Source of the DNA: an uncultured Clostridiaceae bacterium
GTDB taxonomy: Bacteria > Bacillota > Clostridia > TANB77 > CAG-465
NCBI GenBank assembly: GCA_947381905.1
Contig: CANCXL010000019.1
Span: 1 to 32,832, forward strand
Reading direction: 5' to 3'
DNA: 32,832 nucleotides
The translations under genes were made by a program, and so were the position numbers. The notes under the pieces are model-generated. The model was not told the DNA's origin, did not search any database, and saw nothing but the letters and a program-made list of their open reading frames with translations. Positions 22,898 to 32,799 of the stretch are shown here, piece after piece; position 1 is the first letter of the stretch, and every line of letters begins with the position of its first letter.

Positions 22898-23551
22898 TTA
22901 TAACTTATATTTCCATATATACCCTCCTGCTGTTCTACGATTACCCCTGCAACAATTAGATATATTACAACTCTTTATTTTTATTTCTCTCTCAATATCT
23001 TTAATACAATTCCACTCTTTTATTATATTTTCATTTAAGTCATATTGTATAACTTTTTTAGATAATGGATTTTTTATACCTCTATTCCCATAATTGGGAT
23101 TAGCTATTCCCTTTCCTGTTACTTTTTTTAATTGTTCAGGTTGTTGACCATAACTCCAATGTTCTTTTCCTTTTTTTCTTAAGCCTATTCTCCAAGAATG
23201 ATCTTGATTTTCTTGATTATCACACCATTCTAAATTGCAAATACTATTATTTTGTTTATTTCCATCTTTATGATTTATTTGTGGTTTACCTTCTGGATTT
23301 GGTATAAATGCTTGTGCTACTACTCTATGTACCTTTATTGTAGTATTTACTCCATTTAAAGCTAAATTTGCTCTATAATATCCTCTTGTATCTTTACAAT
23401 ATTTTAATAATTTTTCGGGATAAGTTCTATAAAATCTTGACCCCTTAGGTCCTATTCTTTCTATTATTCTTCCTAAACTTTTAATTTTTCCCAAATTGCT
23501 AACTTGATATAATCCTTCATATCCTTTTATATCTTTCCATATTTCTTCCAA
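22898..23551 (-). CDS. NUMOD4-HNH-NUMOD1 homing endonuclease
   Basis: The 217-residue protein has a NUMOD4 motif (EEIWKDIKGYEGLYQVSNLG), an HNH domain in the middle (KVHRVVAQAFIPNP, INHKDGNKQNNSICNLEWC), and a C-terminal NUMOD1 DNA-binding motif (KKVIQYDLNENIIKEWNCIK, ISNCCRGNRRTAGGYIWKY). This is a complete domain set for a group I-like homing endonuclease that cuts DNA and promotes its own spread; the catalytic His and Asn are present. It sits as the last gene of cassette 2 in the slot that the antirepressor fills in cassette 1, and may have helped mobilise the cassette. Confidence 0.93.
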   Translation of the reverse strand: MEEIWKDIKGYEGLYQVSNLGKIKSLGRIIERIGPKGSRFYRTYPEKLLKYCKDTRGYYRANLALNGVNTTIKVHRVVAQAFIPNPEGKPQINHKDGNKQNNSICNLEWCDNQENQDHSWRIGLRKKGKEHWSYGQQPEQLKKVTGKGIANPNYGNRGIKNPLSKKVIQYDLNENIIKEWNCIKDIEREIKIKSCNISNCCRGNRRTAGGYIWKYKL

Positions 23552-24893: not shown

Positions 24894-26446
24894 TCTAATA
24901 TCTCCTTAATAATCTTATAAAATTTAGGTAATTTTTCTTTCAAGTTGTTTGGATTCTCAAAGTACTCTCTAAAACTCTCACTGAATATTTCAGTAATATA
25001 CTCTAATTTTATTTTTCCATAATTATCTTTAGTCTCATTTATATTATTGCAATGAATATACCCTTGATACTCATCTATAAAATTATCATTTTTTAGTGCA
25101 TATAGTAATCTATTGTCTCTCTCAATTATAGTTAATTTACTAACATTTACTAATTCTTGTTTTACTTTTAAGTATTCTTTATTCCCTTTTAATACTATAT
25201 CTTCTATTAAATGTCCTATTTCATGTATTACTTCATATTTATTTGCTCCTTGATAAATATATATCACTTTATTTTTAGAATCATATCTACTAAAATCGAA
25301 CTGACTTGTTCCTTTAGTTACAATAATAAATTGTAAATTATCATTTAAAGTTTTTCCTAATTTTATAGGTAATAAATTAATTGCATCATTTATAGCTTTT
25401 TCTTCGTTAATAGTATCATAGTCTTTTGTAACATTTTTTCTAATATATGGAACAATTATATCATCTTTATTTCTTAATGTCGATATATTTACATATTGAA
25501 TAGTCGAATGACACCAATGAAAAAATGAAGTTATAGGAGGAAGATTAGCTCCTTGTACTAAACCCCAAACTTTGATTTTTTCTTGTCTTATATCTTTTAT
25601 TGATAACCCTACATATCTTGTAAATTCATTATAATCATTAATACTAAATATCATTCCATCCATATATTTACACATCGGAGTTACATTATCACAATTATCT
25701 GATATAAAACGTACCTTTGCCTTCTTATCTAATAATTTTATTCCTTCAAGTTTTGCTCTATTATCTAATTCGATTAACTTATGGTCAATAACTCCATATA
25801 TTTTATTTCCATTTATTTTTATCTTATTATCTACTTGTCTATCTATAATATTTTGAAATTCTACATCGTATATGTCTAATTCTTTTTGCTGATTTATATT
25901 TATTATAGCTTGTCTATATAATTTATCTGTATTATTCTTTATTACTATTTGTTTATATGTATTAAGATCATATCCATAACTATCATTCATCGCTAATAAA
26001 CTCAAGAACAATATATCAGTTAATGTTAATATCTCTTTTCGTTTATAAAGAGGCAAACTTTCGTTTACCTCTTCTTGTCCTTTTGTATAATAGTAATTCA
26101 TATCATTATATATTACTTGATTTTCATACTCATCTAACTTATTTTGTTCTTCTATATATGCGCTATATATTAATAATTCTAATATTTCACTATTCTTTAC
26201 TCTTGTTCTATTATATATATTATTTGCTAAAGCTCCAAAATAGCCTTTTAAAAGTTTTTTATCCTTCCACTCAACTATTTTTACGTCTATCATATTTTTT
26301 GTCCTTTTATCTGTAATATTATAAATATTTTCATAAGTTAGATTAAGTATTTTAAAAATTTCCTGTAGTCTATTTTTGGTCTGTTTGCTAATTTTATTAT
26401 ATATTTTATTTAATTTCCTCATTTGGTTATCGTGATGTTGCCACAT
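24890..26446 (-). CDS. Minor head protein (SPP1 gp7-like) with HEXXH metallopeptidase-like region
   Basis: The 518-residue protein follows the portal gene by 12 nt, the usual place of gp7-like head morphogenesis proteins. The N-terminal half is helical; near residue 305-330 one reads KVWGLVQGANLPPI then SFFHWCHSTIQYVN, like the gp7-family segment with its Cys/His motif. The C-terminal part (about 370-518) contains VIHEIGHLIED, an HEXXH zinc-binding motif at residues 408-412, with further Glu residues downstream (ITEIFSESFREYFENP) that could be a third ligand as in the E-S-F-A-E-x-F pattern of zincins. It may be a capsid-associated peptidase. Start 26446 (MWQHHDNQ) follows GAGGTG. Confidence 0.82.
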   Translation of the reverse strand: MWQHHDNQMRKLNKIYNKISKQTKNRLQEIFKILNLTYENIYNITDKRTKNMIDVKIVEWKDKKLLKGYFGALANNIYNRTRVKNSEILELLIYSAYIEEQNKLDEYENQVIYNDMNYYYTKGQEEVNESLPLYKRKEILTLTDILFLSLLAMNDSYGYDLNTYKQIVIKNNTDKLYRQAIININQQKELDIYDVEFQNIIDRQVDNKIKINGNKIYGVIDHKLIELDNRAKLEGIKLLDKKAKVRFISDNCDNVTPMCKYMDGMIFSINDYNEFTRYVGLSIKDIRQEKIKVWGLVQGANLPPITSFFHWCHSTIQYVNISTLRNKDDIIVPYIRKNVTKDYDTINEEKAINDAINLLPIKLGKTLNDNLQFIIVTKGTSQFDFSRYDSKNKVIYIYQGANKYEVIHEIGHLIEDIVLKGNKEYLKVKQELVNVSKLTIIERDNRLLYALKNDNFIDEYQGYIHCNNINETKDNYGKIKLEYITEIFSESFREYFENPNNLKEKLPKFYKIIKEILE

Positions 26447-26458
26447 TAAACAACACCT

Positions 26459-28054
26459 CTATTCTTTAAAACCATTTATAGGCACTGAATCTTTTTGTTT
26501 TATATTATCTTTTTTGAGTTCTTTTTGTTCATATTGCTTGTTATTATTTTTCTTATCAGTATCTAGTCTTAACATTTTCATATTTTCTGCATTTTTCTTT
26601 ATATTTTCTTGATCTTGATTATCCATTTTAGATAATTCACTTATTGCATCTAAATCCATATTTAAAAGTTTAATAATTGTCTCGTCTGAAAGAAGACCTC
26701 TTAATTTTAATGCATTTATTATATCTGTTGATCTATCTGATGGTAGATTTCTATTTAGTTTTGTTTCTATGTCCCTATAATCATAACTTTTTCCTTTTTC
26801 TTTGTTTATTTTATTAAATATTATTCTCCATCTTCTATTATATCCTTCTGTAAAATCCCCCTCAAATGTTGCAACATATTGTTGTAAACCAAAAAATTTC
26901 TTTTCTAATGCTGCATTATTATCTGCTTGAGTAAATCCTAAATCTGTCATATTAGGACAAAACGAACAAAGGCATATTATGTCCATTAATGTCTTTTTAT
27001 GATTTTGTACTGCTGTATCATTTACATCCTTTTCTACCCACGCTATATCACTATTAACTTCCTTGCTACCATTTAAATACCTTACTCTACTTTCTAGGAC
27101 ATGTTGATCTTCTAATACTCTTGCTGGATTTATAATATCGTTTCCATTATCATCTTGTATTATTAATGGATTTTGTGGTTCATATCCTATAACCTTAAGT
27201 ATTGCTTCATCATTATATTTAAATAAATTTCTAGAGTTTTGTATACATCTCTCATAAGCTCTAATTAAACTAATTACTGGCTCAAATATAGCTTCTCCTT
27301 CACAATTTTCAATAGCAGTAGCAGGTATATCATCATCCCATTTTTTAGGTTGTCTTTCTTCTTTTTTTTCTTTGAATAATGGTTCATTCTTAAATTTTAC
27401 TTTGTACTCTGGACTTCCAAATAACTTTCTCTTTTCAGGAGTATCATAATAATATCTTTTTCCTTCTGAAGTAGTAAGTTCTATCATTTGCTGATATTCA
27501 CCATCTGCCATATATGTTTGTATAATTCTATATAATCCTATTAATTTCTTTTTTAATGAATAATCCCAAATAGCCACTGTTTCAAGCGCATCACTTCTAG
27601 CAATAGTTATTTCTTCTGTATTTTCATCTTTATAATATACTTCATAACAAGCTCTTTTAACTAAAAAATCTAAAACCATATGAAAGAAATGTGAAGAATC
27701 ATTATTATAATCTGTTATATGTTTTATTATCTCTTCTATTTCAGATATTTCTTTCTTGCTATTAGTCCCATAATTAAATATTTCTTGAATTATTTTATCT
27801 TTTTCTTCATTAAAAGCTTTAACTTTATACGTTGGCGCTTTACCTCCAAAATATCCTGCTGCCATTATACTAATATATCTTTCCAATGGAACTTTTATAT
27901 CCTCGTCAGATAAGCTAGATAGTTCTTCATCTGTTAATTTCCTTCTAAATGCTTCATATAATTTTTTTCTTTTGTCTAGTTCAACTTGAGCTTTACTATA
28001 TATAGCTGTTATACTTTCTTCTTGTGTTAGTCTTTCTTTACTATATCTTAACAT
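26459..28054 (-). CDS. Portal protein (SPP1 gp6-like)
   Basis: The 531-residue protein forms the dodecameric channel at one capsid vertex through which DNA is packaged. It begins MLRYSKERLTQEESITAIYS, carries the common MAAGYFGGKAPTYKV segment near residue 65, a central domain with YNDEAILKVIGYEPQN, then GFTQADNNAALEKKFFGLQ, and ends in a Lys/Asn-rich tail. Length and motifs fit SPP1-type portals. A good AGGAGG site precedes the start; the terminase lies 9 nt upstream. Confidence 0.93.
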   Translation of the reverse strand: MLRYSKERLTQEESITAIYSKAQVELDKRKKLYEAFRRKLTDEELSSLSDEDIKVPLERYISIMAAGYFGGKAPTYKVKAFNEEKDKIIQEIFNYGTNSKKEISEIEEIIKHITDYNNDSSHFFHMVLDFLVKRACYEVYYKDENTEEITIARSDALETVAIWDYSLKKKLIGLYRIIQTYMADGEYQQMIELTTSEGKRYYYDTPEKRKLFGSPEYKVKFKNEPLFKEKKEERQPKKWDDDIPATAIENCEGEAIFEPVISLIRAYERCIQNSRNLFKYNDEAILKVIGYEPQNPLIIQDDNGNDIINPARVLEDQHVLESRVRYLNGSKEVNSDIAWVEKDVNDTAVQNHKKTLMDIICLCSFCPNMTDLGFTQADNNAALEKKFFGLQQYVATFEGDFTEGYNRRWRIIFNKINKEKGKSYDYRDIETKLNRNLPSDRSTDIINALKLRGLLSDETIIKLLNMDLDAISELSKMDNQDQENIKKNAENMKMLRLDTDKKNNNKQYEQKELKKDNIKQKDSVPINGFKE

Positions 28055-28063
28055 TTCTTCCTC

Positions 28064-29467
28064 CTATGTTCTTATAAACGCCTTATTTGACATTTTCATG
28101 TTTTCATTTTTAGGTTTAGGATTTTCATATACACCTGTTAGGCAGTCTTCTGCATCGTCATGCTCATTTTTCCCAGTTCTAACATAGTGTTTTATGTGTT
28201 TTGCAAATTCTGGCCATTTATCTTCCCAGTTTATTGGAAAATATATATTATTCATAACTCCAGTTGAATTGCTTAATATTCTAGCCGTCTTATTTTCTCC
28301 TTGATGAAACCATCTAACATTTGTATGTCTATTTCCCATTTTTCTTAATTTTGTTATTACATTTCTAGCAAATCCTCTACCACCATTATTGCTTTCTATA
28401 TTTGCATTTCCTACATTATCCTTTGTCATCATTTTTGCTACTGCAGGTTCAGTTTCTTCCATTGCATCTTGGGTGTAAATAACATCTAAAATATAATAAT
28501 CATTGTTATACATTTGATAATCTATTGAACATAAAAAATCACTGCCTTCATCTGCAGTGTCTGTATAATTCATTATATAATGAGCTGGAGGTAACTTTTC
28601 ATATGTTTTAAAGTTACTATATAATCTATTCTTAACATCAATAGGTTCTTGTTGATAGTTAGCATATACTATGTCTTTATTCATATTCTTAGTTTTTAAC
28701 TTGTAATCTTCTTCATTTAATATGTCATCACATAGCATACTTCCATCATCTTGAACAGCCTTATAATTAATATGTCTTACATTATCATAATTATCTAATA
28801 TATATCCAGCTAAGTCTCCATCTGCCCATCTTGTCATTATTATAATTAGTTTAAAACCTGTTTCTGTTCTAGATAACATTGTATTATTAAACCAATCTAT
28901 TTGTTTTTGTAATGTATTTTCGTTGTATGCTTCTTCAACGTTCTTTATAAGATCATCTATTATCATAATAGTACATCCAAATCCTGTTGCTGTTCCTTTA
29001 GGCGATGTAGCAAGATAATTTGCTTGTCCACTACCTTCTAATGCCCATTTATTTGCGCTAGCCTCACCATCTTTTATTTTTGTATTCGGAAATATATCTG
29101 AATATGATATTATACCCTCTGTCTTTTGCGAAGCTATTTCATCTCTTACTGATTTTGCAAATGTCCCAGAGAGTATTTCATTATACGAACCCGTCATTAT
29201 CTTTTCTTTTGGATTTTTTCCTAATATCCACTCAACTAGTTTGCCTGCAGTTCTACTTTTTCCGTGTCTTGGTGGCATATTTATTACTAGAAATCTCTCA
29301 CTGCCTTCATAAAAGTCTTGTAATTCTTTACAGATGCTTTTTAAAAAATTTCTATCCTCTTTGTAAAAATCTGATGCAGTTAACTTACAATATTCAAAAA
29401 AATCACGTCTAGCTAATTCTAGATGTGCTTGCTTAATCAATTCTTCTTGTATGTTACTTATTACCAT
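28064..29467 (-). CDS. terL: Terminase large subunit
   Basis: This 467-residue ATPase/nuclease drives and cuts DNA during packaging. A Walker A motif is present at about 63-71 (NMPPRHGKS) and a Walker B at 166-172 (TIMIIDD), followed by an SRTETG and MTRWADGDLAG coupling motif. The C-terminal RNase H-like nuclease has acidic residues in DFLCSIDYQMYNNDYYI, NIESNNGGRG and HDDAEDCLTG. The start overlaps the terS stop by 14 nt, and no strong site precedes it, so translation is likely coupled. Confidence 0.96.
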   Translation of the reverse strand: MVISNIQEELIKQAHLELARRDFFEYCKLTASDFYKEDRNFLKSICKELQDFYEGSERFLVINMPPRHGKSRTAGKLVEWILGKNPKEKIMTGSYNEILSGTFAKSVRDEIASQKTEGIISYSDIFPNTKIKDGEASANKWALEGSGQANYLATSPKGTATGFGCTIMIIDDLIKNVEEAYNENTLQKQIDWFNNTMLSRTETGFKLIIIMTRWADGDLAGYILDNYDNVRHINYKAVQDDGSMLCDDILNEEDYKLKTKNMNKDIVYANYQQEPIDVKNRLYSNFKTYEKLPPAHYIMNYTDTADEGSDFLCSIDYQMYNNDYYILDVIYTQDAMEETEPAVAKMMTKDNVGNANIESNNGGRGFARNVITKLRKMGNRHTNVRWFHQGENKTARILSNSTGVMNNIYFPINWEDKWPEFAKHIKHYVRTGKNEHDDAEDCLTGVYENPKPKNENMKMSNKAFIRT

Positions 29468-30002
29468 AAACTATATTTCGCAATTCCTCAGTTGTCATTC
29501 CTGCAAATGGATTATTTACATCAATTTTTCCACCAACTTCAATTTTATCTCTAAACATTCCTAAATGTTTTCCTAAAAGTTCTAAAGCTTTTGTTTTATC
29601 TAAGAGTTTTACTTTTCGCGTATCTCCTACTTTTTCTCTATTATCTCCATAGCCTTCATATTCTTCAAGCGTTTCTAACGAAATTATTGCTCCTGCTATA
29701 TCATTATCAATTTCTTTTATATTTTTTAATCCTCCAGAATCATTATATAAACTCCTGATATCAGCAAAAGCTATTTTAGCTAATTCTTGTATCACTTTAT
29801 CTTGTGTTACTTTTGTTCTTTTTTCTCTTTCCTTAATTTTATCTGAAATATATTTTTTAATGTCAGCAAATGTCAGCAATCTATTTCCATTTACTGTTGC
29901 TGTATGATCTTTTTTTACTTTTGGATAAGCGACCTTATATGCTCTTGTTGCATTAAGATCAATTAAGTATTCGTCACAAAATCTTTGTTGTGAATTTGTC
30001 AT
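29454..30002 (-). CDS. terS: Terminase small subunit
   Basis: The 182-residue protein recognises the packaging site and recruits the large subunit. It begins MTNSQQRFCDEYLIDLNATR then AYKVAYPKVKKDHTATVNG, a typical Terminase_2 helix-turn-helix region, followed by KVTQDKVIQELAKIAFADIR and a C-terminal NPFAGMTTEELRNIV motif. AAGGAGGGGG precedes the start. It is the first gene of the packaging-head-tail operon, with the RNA-rich region upstream. Confidence 0.93.
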   Translation of the reverse strand: MTNSQQRFCDEYLIDLNATRAYKVAYPKVKKDHTATVNGNRLLTFADIKKYISDKIKEREKRTKVTQDKVIQELAKIAFADIRSLYNDSGGLKNIKEIDNDIAGAIISLETLEEYEGYGDNREKVGDTRKVKLLDKTKALELLGKHLGMFRDKIEVGGKIDVNNPFAGMTTEELRNIVYGNK

Positions 30003-30092: not shown

Positions 30093-30166
30093 ACCACATT
30101 AGCTTAATTGGATAAAGCAACTGTTTGCCTAACAGTTAGATGCGGGTTCAAATCCCGTGTGTGAAA
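30093..30166 (+). tRNA. tRNA-like gene, anticodon GCC (Gly) as read, imperfect acceptor
   Basis: A 74-nt cloverleaf can be drawn: D arm GCTT/AAGC with a GG-containing loop, anticodon stem ACTGT/ACAGT with loop TTGCCTA, variable loop TAGAT, and T arm GCGGG-TTCAAAT-CCCGT. The acceptor stem is poor: five of seven pairs form, and the outer two are mismatched (AC against AA). CCA is not encoded. T at position 37 is unusual. If the loop is read as TTGCCTAA, it looks like an Arg(CCT) loop with one extra base. It has its own promoter and terminator, so it is expressed, but whether it is charged is doubtful. Confidence 0.6.
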
Positions 30167-30197
30167 CTTAACAAGTAAATCTTGTTTATCATATACG

Positions 30198-30584: not shown

Positions 30585-30620
30585 AATATCACCTGCCTAA
30601 AGATGGGAGGTGATAGCCTT

Positions 30621-30680
30621 ATGGCAGAAACAATTATATTCGTTATTGTATTAATTTTCTTCATAAGAGAATTAAAATAG
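30621..30680 (+). CDS. Candidate type I toxin peptide, 19 residues
   Basis: The ORF encodes MAETIIFVIVLIFFIRELK: an acidic N-terminus, a membrane helix and a basic end, the build of Fst- or Ldr-like membrane toxins. GGGAGGTG lies 8 nt upstream, but its AGGTG is the 3' arm of a 5' hairpin (CACCT paired with AGGTG, up to TATCACCT/AGGTGATA), which would restrict ribosome access, as in many type I toxin mRNAs. A terminator follows the ORF. The translation start overlaps a sequence repeated at 30789-30818, transcribed on the opposite strand from a second promoter (candidate antitoxin RNA). No match to a named family; toxicity is inferred. Confidence 0.6.
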   Translation: MAETIIFVIVLIFFIRELK

Positions 30681-30696
30681 CAATAACTTTCTTGAT

Positions 30697-30730
30697 GGCC
30701 TGTGTTCCTCCACAGGTCGTTATTATTATA
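30697..30730 (+). terminator. Terminator of candidate toxin mRNA
   Basis: CCTGTG (30699-30704) and CACAGG (30711-30716) form a 6-bp GC-rich stem with a TTCCTC loop, followed by a broken T-run. The loop is complementary to GAGGAA in the antitoxin RNA. Confidence 0.6.
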
Positions 30731-30752: not shown

Positions 30753-30905
30753 AAAAAAGAAGATAAGACTTCCTCTTCTTACCTTCTAATAGCCTATGGC
30801 TTAACAATTATATTCGTTTTCTATAACTTTCCCTTTTCGAAAAGGAGGAAATAATATGGGATTCATATTATTCCATTGTGCAATAAGATTATATTCTCTT
30901 ATTGT
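30753..30905 (-). ncRNA. Candidate antisense antitoxin RNA (convergent, par-like)
   Basis: A consensus minus-strand promoter (30912-30940) and a terminator (7-bp stem AAGAAGA/TCTTCTT at 30757-30780, then TTTTTT) define an RNA of about 150 nt. Within it the complement of 30789-30818 can pair with the start region of the toxin mRNA: ATAGCC and TATGGC blocks and an identical 16-bp AACAATTATATTCGTT (30803-30818 and 30629-30644). A second repeat, TTATTGTATTAAT, lies at 30643-30655 and 30899-30911, at the 5' end of this RNA. Convergent transcription over direct repeats is the defining layout of the Fst/par loci. The RNA also contains a palindromic CCTTTTCGAAAAGG hairpin. Confidence 0.6.
30789..30818. 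repeat. Direct repeat of toxin translation-start region
   Basis: Compared with 30613-30644, this copy shares ATAGCC, TATGGC and the 16-bp AACAATTATATTCGTT, differing by small indels between the blocks. Because the two copies are transcribed in opposite directions, the RNAs are complementary here. Confidence 0.85.
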
Positions 30906-30911
30906 ATTAAT

Positions 30912-30940
30912 ATTATAGCAATAATTGTTTTAATTGTCAA
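30912..30940 (-). promoter_or_regulatory. Consensus promoter of candidate antitoxin RNA
   Basis: On the minus strand TTGACA (30940-30935) and TATAAT (30917-30912) are exactly 17 bp apart, a perfect consensus and stronger than the toxin promoter, as expected for an antisense antitoxin. Confidence 0.85.
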
Positions 30941-31151: not shown

Positions 31152-31239
31152 TGGCGGAAGAAAAAGGATTCGAACCTTTGCGCCTTTTAAAGCCTAACAG
31201 TTTAGCAGACTGTCCCCTTTACCTCTTGGGTATTCTTCC
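31152..31239 (-). tRNA. tRNA-Ser(GCT)
   Basis: An 88-nt tRNA with a perfect 7-bp acceptor (GGAAGAA/TTCTTCC), discriminator G and encoded CCA. The D arm is CCC/GGG, the anticodon stem ACAGT/ACTGT with loop CTGCTAA (anticodon GCT, reading AGC/AGU), a class II variable arm (about 17 nt), and T arm AAAGG-TTCGAAT-CCTTT. All invariant features are present, so it should be functional. It is 8 nt downstream of the tRNA-Leu-like element on the same strand; a hairpin at 31075-31096 (AGGACAG/CTGTCCT) may end the transcript. Confidence 0.93.
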
Positions 31240-31247
31240 AAATAAAA

Positions 31248-31380
31248 AAATATAGGTTGGGATTTGCACCCAACATGCTACTTGTATTAATCGTTCACTA
31301 TAACAGAAAGGAGGTGAATGTATTCTTTTTCGTAGCGTAGTGGCTCATTCTACTCTGTCTACCTATTCCAGCACTATATT
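31248..31380 (-). tRNA. tRNA-Leu(GAG)-like element with oversized variable arm
   Basis: Acceptor arms AATATAG and CTATATT pair perfectly, and the pairing extends to 12 bp outward. The D arm (CTG-GAATAGGTAGA-CAG) matches the tRNA-Leu pattern. The anticodon loop ATGAGCC carries GAG, with one A-A mismatch at the stem base. The T arm is TTGGG-TGCAAAT-CCCAA (T55 replaced by G). Where the variable arm should be about 15 nt there are over 50: a GCTAC/GTAGC stem encloses a second TTCAC/GTGAA hairpin. No CCA is encoded. It is either an expanded, possibly repurposed tRNA or a degraded tRNA with an insertion. Confidence 0.5.
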
Positions 31381-31601: not shown

Positions 31602-32177
31602 TTATTTTATATCATAATATGCATAAACTCTAAAGCATTCTCTTTTAAATTCGTGCGAATAGTCTATCTTGTTATATGGTATAGACAATATATATTCAAT
31701 CATATATTTTAGCCCATCATACATTAAGTGTTGCATTCTATCATATCCTATAGTTTTCTCCCTTCTAAACTTGTTATTGAAACTAATATCTATGTCTTTC
31801 CACTTCATTTTATCTATTAAATTGCATTCGATAATAAAACTTGCTTCTTGATTTATTTCATCTAGATAATCAAGCGCTTTATCCATCAAATACATTTTTC
31901 TATATAAAGAATTTCTTTTATCTGTATATTTTTTTACTTCTTCTTTCGCTTTCTTTTTACCTATACTTTTTAAATTATATTCTATTTCTTGTGGTGCTAT
32001 ATTCTTTCTACTAGTTTGCACTGCAAGTTTTTCTTCTTCTATCTTTACTAACTCTATGATTTTATCATCAGAACTTAAACAATCATTATAATAAGCTATA
32101 GTATCATTATAATTTTGAATTAATGTTCTATATCTATCTATATTTTTAAACCATTCTTTTAAATCTTTTGTATTCAT
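31602..32177 (-). CDS. ArpU/RinA-family late transcription regulator
   Basis: This 191-residue helical protein has EWFKNIDRYRTLIQNYNDTI at the start, a coiled middle (EEVKKYTDKRNSLYRKMYLM) and a C-terminal sigma-region-4-like helix-turn-helix area (IIECNLIDKMKWKDIDISFN, then GYDRMQHLMYDGLKYMIEYI). Proteins of this type lie just before the terminase in Firmicute phages and switch on late packaging and structural genes. It is the last gene of the upstream region, separated from the terminase by the RNA-rich 1.6 kb stretch. A clear AGGAGGG site precedes the ATG. Confidence 0.85.
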   Translation of the reverse strand: MNTKDLKEWFKNIDRYRTLIQNYNDTIAYYNDCLSSDDKIIELVKIEEEKLAVQTSRKNIAPQEIEYNLKSIGKKKAKEEVKKYTDKRNSLYRKMYLMDKALDYLDEINQEASFIIECNLIDKMKWKDIDISFNNKFRREKTIGYDRMQHLMYDGLKYMIEYILSIPYNKIDYSHEFKRECFRVYAYYDIK

Positions 32178-32199: not shown

Positions 32200-32799
32200 C
32201 TATATTTTATATTCTATATTTCTAAATTGCTCATGGGTTACTATAGATTTAATTTCCTCTTTTATATATTTTAGTGGCATATAATCAGTCATCAAATATA
32301 TTTTATTATTTTGCTTTCTTATTTCTATAACTTCTTTTCCATTTACATAGTCTCCTTTTCCACTCTTACCTACCTTTTTCATATTTTCTATTCTTAAATT
32401 TGAGTTTACTAATCCTGTCTCTATTGAATGTTTAATATTTTCGCTATTTGTAACCCATTCGAGATTATCCATGCAATTATTTTGTTTATTACCATCTTTA
32501 TGATTTACTTGAGGTTTATTTTCTGGATTTGGTATAAATGCTTCTGCTACTAATCTATGAATTTTAAAAGCTTTTCCTCTGGAATTGTTATTATATAATA
32601 CTATTCCTAAATATCCTTTACTTCGTACAAGTGGTTTAAGTATTTTTTCTTCTTTAAATACTTTAGTTACATTTTTTATCCCAACATTAACCATTTTTGC
32701 TTTCCTTCTTATATGTCCAAGTGTGCTTACCTGATATTTTTCATAGCCTTTTATATCTTTCCATACTTCTCCTATATCTACTTTTATTTCATCTTTCAC
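32200..32799 (-). CDS. NUMOD4-HNH homing endonuclease
   Basis: The 199-residue protein starts at GTG 32799 with AAGGTG about 6 nt upstream. It has a NUMOD4 motif (EVWKDIKGYEKYQVSTLGHI), an HNH core (KIHRLVAEAFIPNPENKPQV, NHKDGNKQNNCMDNLEWVTN) and a C-terminal region without NUMOD1 (VIEIRKQNNKIYLMTDYMPL). It is clearly related to the HNH protein at 22898-23551 over the first 110 residues, with an unrelated C-terminus. It is a selfish homing endonuclease inserted before the late regulator. The catalytic His-Asn-His set appears intact. Confidence 0.92.
   Translation of the reverse strand: MKDEIKVDIGEVWKDIKGYEKYQVSTLGHIRRKAKMVNVGIKNVTKVFKEEKILKPLVRSKGYLGIVLYNNNSRGKAFKIHRLVAEAFIPNPENKPQVNHKDGNKQNNCMDNLEWVTNSENIKHSIETGLVNSNLRIENMKKVGKSGKGDYVNGKEVIEIRKQNNKIYLMTDYMPLKYIKEEIKSIVTHEQFRNIEYKI

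Follow-up and report, generated by a model that had tools for sequence, protein, structure and literature searches.

Non-decoding RNAs that imitate transfer RNA (tRNA) are known from plant viruses, transfer-messenger RNA (tmRNA), Y RNAs and mascRNA. In viral tRNA-like structures and in the mascRNA/MALAT1-type element the tRNA-like fold is embedded in a longer transcript, and in mascRNA the cuts are made by RNase P and RNase Z. Bacterial tRNA-Sec combines a 13-base-pair (bp) acceptor/T branch with a long variable arm. We know of no comparably widespread tRNA-mimic family in double-stranded DNA phages. Here we analyze a tRNA-like element on the minus strand of a 32,832-nucleotide (nt) stretch of DNA from an uncultured Clostridiaceae bacterium. 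This stretch, hereafter the window, is an entire 32.8-kb contig (G000:C19) from a 1.73-Mb genome, and its minus strand encodes the head, tail and lysis module of a siphophage. The element almost certainly belongs to a tRNA-like family, and it is best explained as a tRNA mimic of class II (Leu-type) origin that does not decode and in which a phage-specific stem and insert have taken the place of the anticodon arm and the variable arm.

Like class II tRNA-Leu, the element has a 7-bp acceptor stem, U8, a D arm of the form GCGGAAUxGGUAGACGC, U48, a long variable (V) arm and a T arm. It differs in lacking a conserved anticodon arm, in its 6-bp T stem with the loop UGCAAAU, in a V region of 34-92 nt, and in having no fixed discriminator and no CCA. 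True tRNA-Leu reaches covariance scores of at most about 45 bits, whereas typical members of the family score 50 to 87 bits. The 13-bp branch and long V arm resemble those of tRNA-Sec and allo-tRNA, but the branch is split 7+6 instead of 8+5 and the anticodon arm is missing. The mascRNA/MALAT1-type element is eukaryotic and unrelated in sequence to the phage element, for which a similar cleavage is only presumed.

A preliminary description of the window had proposed a tRNA-Leu-like element with an expanded variable arm. This is borne out both by the 75.7 bits that the window scores with a covariance model from which it was left out and by enrichment of the V stem in the family. The perfect 7-bp acceptor stem, extendable to 12 bp via an A/T run, the stems GCTAC/GTAGC and TTCAC/GTGAA, and the sequence CACCTCCTTTCT are all present as described. 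Some details had to be amended: the D stem has 3 bp, the T stem 6 bp, and the T loop is UGCAAAU rather than UUCRANY. Read on the minus strand from 31380 to 31249, the element is AATATAG-TG-CTG-GAATAGGTAGA-CAG-(linker)-GCTAC...GTAGC-AT-G-TTGGG-TGCAAAT-CCCAA-C-CTATATT, with the following parts:

31249..31380, minus strand: whole tRNA-like element (TLS), 132 nt
31374..31380, minus strand: 5' strand of the acceptor stem, AATATAG, 7 bp with 31249-31255; 7 of 7 pairs covary in the family
31249..31255, minus strand: 3' strand of the acceptor stem, CTATATT, then U with no CCA encoded, from sequence and covariation
31355..31371, minus strand: D arm with stem CTG/CAG (GCG/CGC in the family, compensated in the window) and loop GAATAGGTAGA
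31337..31354, minus strand: linker (18 nt) at the place of the anticodon arm, containing GAG and no conserved arm
31332..31336, minus strand: 5' strand of the V stem, GCTAC; V stem enriched in the family
31277..31281, minus strand: 3' strand of the V stem, GTAGC; V stem enriched in the family
31282..31331, minus strand: hypervariable interior of the V arm (50 nt) with inner stem TTCAC/GTGAA, present in the sequence and not conserved
31305..31316, minus strand: CACCTCCTTTCT, the supposed anti-Shine-Dalgarno mimic, private and at chance level
31256..31274, minus strand: T arm with a 6-bp stem (G+TTGGG / CCCAA+C) that covaries, T loop TGCAAAT at 31262-31268

U48 corresponds to the T at 31275, and the V stem GCTAC/GTAGC closes before it; the 6-bp T stem, U48 and V stem of the family are thus all found in the window copy.

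Relatives identified through the terminase (34 viral contigs and 3 prophages) have no DNA in common with the element, and synteny gave nothing. The entry point to the family was a weak 27-nt BLAST match in two prophages from congeneric genomes (G003 and G006). A structural scan of these shows the element TATGTAG-UG-ATG-GAATAGGTAGA-CAT ... TTAGG-UGCAAAU-CTTAA-C-CTATATA, flanked by a minor-head gene and a scaffold-like gene. A pattern derived from the window and G003/G006 forms was scanned in IMG/VR and GTDB genomes and gave at least 242 matches, 195 of the 242 with a near-perfect acceptor and T stem. This yields at least 168 non-redundant elements, which is a lower bound for the abundance of the family.

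Almost all members come from Firmicutes and their phages, including more than a hundred phages, both temperate and lytic. BLAST with one member leads to annotated phages, among them SPP1 (between genes 9 and 11), Listeria LP-101, Leuconostoc Ln-9, Enterococcus EfV12 and Bacillus KLEB27-1, and a second BLAST search added phi3T. The common design comprises an acceptor of 7 bp, a D arm of the Leu type (loop GAAUAGGUAGA), a variable middle that includes a long V stem, then U48, and a T stem of 6 bp whose loop is UGCAAAU, with U55 changed to G; a conserved anticodon arm is absent. The insert in the V region is hypervariable (34-92 nt). A phylum-wide search with a covariance model that includes the window (R1) gave at least 55 bits in 5 of 299 genomes, the window's own among them; ordinary tRNA-Leu probably accounts for most R1 matches under about 46 bits. 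Two cases fall under the usual range of members: a variant in Listeria P100/cka11 with the T loop UGAAAAU (42.9 bits) and a partial match in phiFL2A (29.2 bits). The UGAAAAU variant (L333/L334 3887-4027, Listeria cka11 and P100) lies inside a tRNA cluster, 3 nt from tRNA-Asn.

The proposed structure is supported by compensatory changes. In an alignment of 86 elements, pairing at the 16 pair positions of the acceptor, D and T stems reaches 99.3%, and compensatory changes are seen in 372 cells against 87 in shuffles. The covariation score amounts to 0.736 compared to 0.190 in shuffles, and all controls with slid partners remain at or below 0.135. Although the search itself partly favoured paired acceptor and T stems, it made no such demand on the D stem or the additional T-stem pair, and these covary too. 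Variants of the D stem are GCG/CGC, GUG/CAC, ACG/CGU, CUG/CAG (window) and AUG/CAU (G003 and G006). When the covariance model is built from 55 members without the window and without G003/G006 (R2), the window scores 75.7 bits with an E-value of about 1e-16 (E-values of such home-made models being rough) and G006 64.9 bits. With R1 the window reaches 78.0 bits. The strongest matches resembling ordinary tRNA-Leu stop at 45 bits.

Since the initial pattern had fixed UGC in the T loop together with most D-loop positions, the scans were repeated without these constraints. With base 55 left free and a gap too long for a normal tRNA-Leu, G55 is found in 69 of the 77 elements that have an acceptor. 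Elements with a 6-bp T stem carry 69 G, 1 U and 1 A at this position, and those with U55 mostly carry the ordinary 5-bp T stem. If only the T arm is fixed, the acceptor, U8 and D stem appear in 93 of 134 matches, and the loop GAAUAGGUAGA returns in 75 of these 93.

Taken by itself, the window copy is inconspicuous. Its folding energy is unremarkable (z -1.35), ARAGORN calls no tRNA-Leu at this site even after trimming of the V arm, and Rfam 15 does not recognize the element: RF00005 has no match there and tRNA-Ser is the only tRNA reported at the locus. The element is therefore judged real on the comparative evidence. A scan for acceptor, D and T arms returns it as the sole site within the window, and the same scan in approximately 290 kb of related phage DNA returns two true tRNAs and nothing else.

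Features by which a functional tRNA-Leu is recognized are missing from the window element, namely a 5-bp anticodon stem, a 7-nt loop, a purine at position 37, discriminator A73 and a TUC T loop. The anticodon arm that had been drawn amounts to GTAG paired with CTAC, which leaves a loop of 9 nt (or an A.A mismatch), and position 37 is C; the acceptor is followed by U and the T loop is TGCAAAT. Of the four tRNA arms in the preliminary description the acceptor, D and T arms stand, together with the V arm, and the anticodon arm is not supported. Nor is there support for the proposed GAG anticodon and a decoding or charging as Leu, given the discriminator U and the absence of an encoded CCA.

In the family, hairpins at the position of the anticodon arm occur at chance level (38 against 37 expected in the 168 elements), whereas a V stem of at least 6 bp closing directly before U48 is present in 59 of 168 elements compared to 7 in shuffles. 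Without a conserved anticodon arm the element is not a decoding tRNA in the usual sense. The discriminator varies, with A over-represented (95 of 168 against a background of 35%, p 1e-8). G at position 55 means that the usual pseudouridine site is absent; UGCAA conforms to the general UGNRA class of T loops. The parts that are kept belong to the elbow and acceptor: the 7+6 bp acceptor/T stack, G18 and G19 of the D loop, U8, A14, A15-U48 and the T loop UGCAA. As a separate observation, the V regions of elements L074, L276, L280 and L127 contain a second T-arm-like hairpin (GUUCRANUC).

Smaller tRNA-like structures accompany the element. Across 159 loci, 72 further canonical T arms lie within 350 nt of it. 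When a 7-bp acceptor is required, all T-arm structures found within 3 kb share the strand of the element and none is on the opposite strand. Within 1 kb we count 18 mini tRNA-like RNAs of 37-63 nt on the element's strand against 0 on the other, with a perfect acceptor and T arm and no room for an anticodon arm. ARAGORN recognizes none of the 18. They are seen at L057, L060, L085, L100, L114, L173, L178, L200, L217, L230, L269 and L274, and several end in ...A-UUG. SPP1 (L292 3116-3162) has, just downstream of the element, a further tRNA-like hairpin pair, ACGGAC...GCGGG-UUCAAUU-CCCGG...GUCCGU, with a U run after it. In Listeria LP-101 (L293 3312-3444 and 3687-3737) the element is located between the Rfam RNAs rli62 and mcrA, giving at least three structured RNAs in the leader of the late genes.

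The position of the element shows a clear preference. Its nearest genes are mostly on the same strand (133:23 upstream and 119:32 downstream). Among 78 loci with a usable upstream gene, at least 31 have one from a single cluster of ArpU/RinA-type late activators (family calls: NCBIfam ArpU 16, RinA 13; PHROG 36 and 248). Recurrent families downstream are HNH, terminase and scaffold, each in a few loci. In Enterococcus faecalis phiFL2A the order is ArpU - TLS - gp34 - terminase large subunit, and in SPP1 and the G003/G006 prophages the element directly precedes the scaffold gene. Elsewhere it is found within tRNA clusters of Herelleviridae (3 nt from tRNA-Asn in P100), a few nt from a real tRNA on the same strand (L148) and near yonN (phi3T). 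Promoters and terminators show no convincing enrichment around the element, nor are sigma-70 promoters enriched upstream. The surroundings in the window are as follows:

31152..31239, minus strand: genuine tRNA-Ser(GCU), 9 nt downstream of the TLS (ARAGORN and Rfam RF00005, 59.8 bits)
31602..32177, minus strand: open reading frame (ORF) of 191 amino acids directly upstream, at the place of the ArpU/RinA-type late activator of relatives (hidden Markov model from 31 ArpU/RinA neighbours: weak, E 0.06)
29454..30002, minus strand: terminase small subunit, the next phage gene downstream (PHROG 51, 1.2e-41)

Several other features of the neighbourhood were observed. Between the terminase small subunit and the element lies a tRNA-Gly (30093-30167, plus strand, opposite the late genes). 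The plus strand, opposite the strand of the phage genes, also has two hydrophobic ORFs of very short length (30606-30730 and 30845-30920), which have strong ribosome-binding sites (MAETIIFVIVLIFFIREIK and MGFILFHCAIRLYSLIVLIL) and resemble type I toxin peptides. The window phage also carries two NUMOD4/HNH homing-type endonuclease genes (22898-23551 and 32200-32799). The three abundant noncoding transcripts of Listeria CKA15 were considered as evidence of expression and not used, as the most abundant region (26,236-26,727) lies apart from the position of the element in the close relative cka11 (about 28,803-28,943).

As to function, we tentatively favour a non-decoding tRNA mimic that is cut by host RNase P and RNase Z within phage transcripts. 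Judged from strand and position, phage transcripts would include the element, which many phages place after the gene for the ArpU/RinA late activator and ahead of the packaging or head genes, and others inside their tRNA clusters. Host enzymes that read the elbow and acceptor may then excise it, RNase P generating the 5' end and RNase Z the 3' end. Such an excision could punctuate the transcript and release a stable, non-decoding small RNA, which by virtue of its 13-bp branch probably avoids EF-Tu. This processing role is favoured because the features used by RNase P, RNase Z and the CCA-adding enzyme are kept and those read by the ribosome are lost, because the element probably lies within phage transcripts, and because real tRNAs are close by. 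With same-strand tRNAs a few nt away (9 nt in the window, 3 nt in P100, and L148), the ends of the element would be exposed to the same processing. The companion mini tRNA-like RNAs on the element's strand and the excess of A at the discriminator also speak for it.

Several observations weigh against such processing. No CCA is encoded, the discriminator is variable (U in the window), and the 6-bp T stem results in a 13-bp branch where 12 bp is usual. The hypervariable insert exceeds the needs of simple punctuation. RNase P requires little beyond the acceptor and T arm, which leaves the strict conservation of the D loop unexplained. In addition, the 191-amino-acid ORF upstream of the window element matches neither Pfam nor PHROG and is only a candidate for ArpU/RinA homology.

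A somewhat unlikely alternative, close behind the processing role, is a trans-acting small RNA or decoy. Here the tRNA-like body would stabilize the molecule and dock on a host protein that binds tRNA, such as a defence enzyme that modifies or cleaves tRNA and reads the elbow or acceptor, and the hypervariable V arm would act as a phage-specific effector. Strict conservation of the D and T loops beyond the acceptor stem fits this, as do the hypervariable insert of 34-92 nt, the occurrence in lytic as well as temperate phages and in clusters of tRNA genes, and the companion mini tRNA-like RNAs. However, the insert has no common target sequence besides lineage-specific words, and the frequent operon position between fixed late genes would be needless for a free decoy.

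In another alternative the element acts in cis where the late operon begins, as a structured leader that influences RNA polymerase (antitermination) or the stability of the mRNA. The late activator as nearest upstream neighbour in at least 31 of 78 loci, the gene order of phiFL2A and the location before the scaffold gene in SPP1 and G003/G006 all agree with this. Yet the element is also found in Herelleviridae tRNA clusters and near yonN in phi3T, without a known late-operon start, and the lack of sigma-70 promoter enrichment does not help; we regard this explanation as unlikely, though it too is not far behind the processing role.

Very little speaks for a phage Y RNA of the YrlA type that tethers Ro60/Rsr to an exonuclease. 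Such RNAs (RF02553) are the nearest known bacterial and phage tRNA mimics, noncoding like the element, and Y RNAs were suggested in a related Listeria phage by the authors of PMC12282133. The Ro60 motif GNCGAA(N)G, however, is present in 4 of 168 elements against 5.0 expected, and a TROVE protein was found in 0 of 20 element-bearing phage records, with a positive control and with the window's own genome not in the search. RF02553 has no match at the SPP1 or window element and only sub-threshold matches elsewhere in the host genome, and the replacement of U55 by G removes the usual pseudouridine site.

Still less credible is an RNA whose mimic of the 16S ribosomal RNA 3' tail binds or titrates ribosome-binding sites, as had been proposed from CACCTCCTTTCT in the inner hairpin of the window copy. 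Only 2 of 168 middle regions contain CCTCC against 2.5 by shuffling, the Shine-Dalgarno-like GGAGG appears in 8 where 11 are expected by chance, and the inner-hairpin sequence is present in no relative found; the match is a private chance feature of this copy. The competing idea of a plain Shine-Dalgarno sequence serving a short plus-strand ORF fares no better: the frame comprises 5-8 codons, and the sequence is again in no relative. Finally, a decaying tRNA-Leu with a random insertion might be suspected from the nearly tRNA-Leu-identical D arm, the poor anticodon arm and the silence of ARAGORN, but it can practically be set aside, since a pseudogene would lose its stem pairing whereas the anticodon-less design recurs, with compensatory changes, in relatives throughout the Firmicutes phages, and covariation, leave-out model and unforced scans are all contrary to it.

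The family is apparently undescribed. A full-text search of open-licence papers found no description of it, which does not by itself prove novelty, and the 2018 re-annotation of SPP1 makes no mention of a tRNA.

Summarizing, it seems rather probable that Firmicutes phages carry undescribed and very widespread anticodon-less tRNA mimics with smaller companions of 37-63 nt, which went unnoticed even in SPP1. They would constitute a non-translational RNA device, whether as processing signal, decoy or scaffold for a hypervariable arm, and in many phages this device is sited at the start of late expression. If this is true, a real share of the seemingly empty intergenic phage DNA near late genes would consist of structured RNA missed by tRNA finders and Rfam. 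As the element is carried by model phages (SPP1, phi3T, and Listeria and Enterococcus phages), its function is open to ordinary phage genetics.
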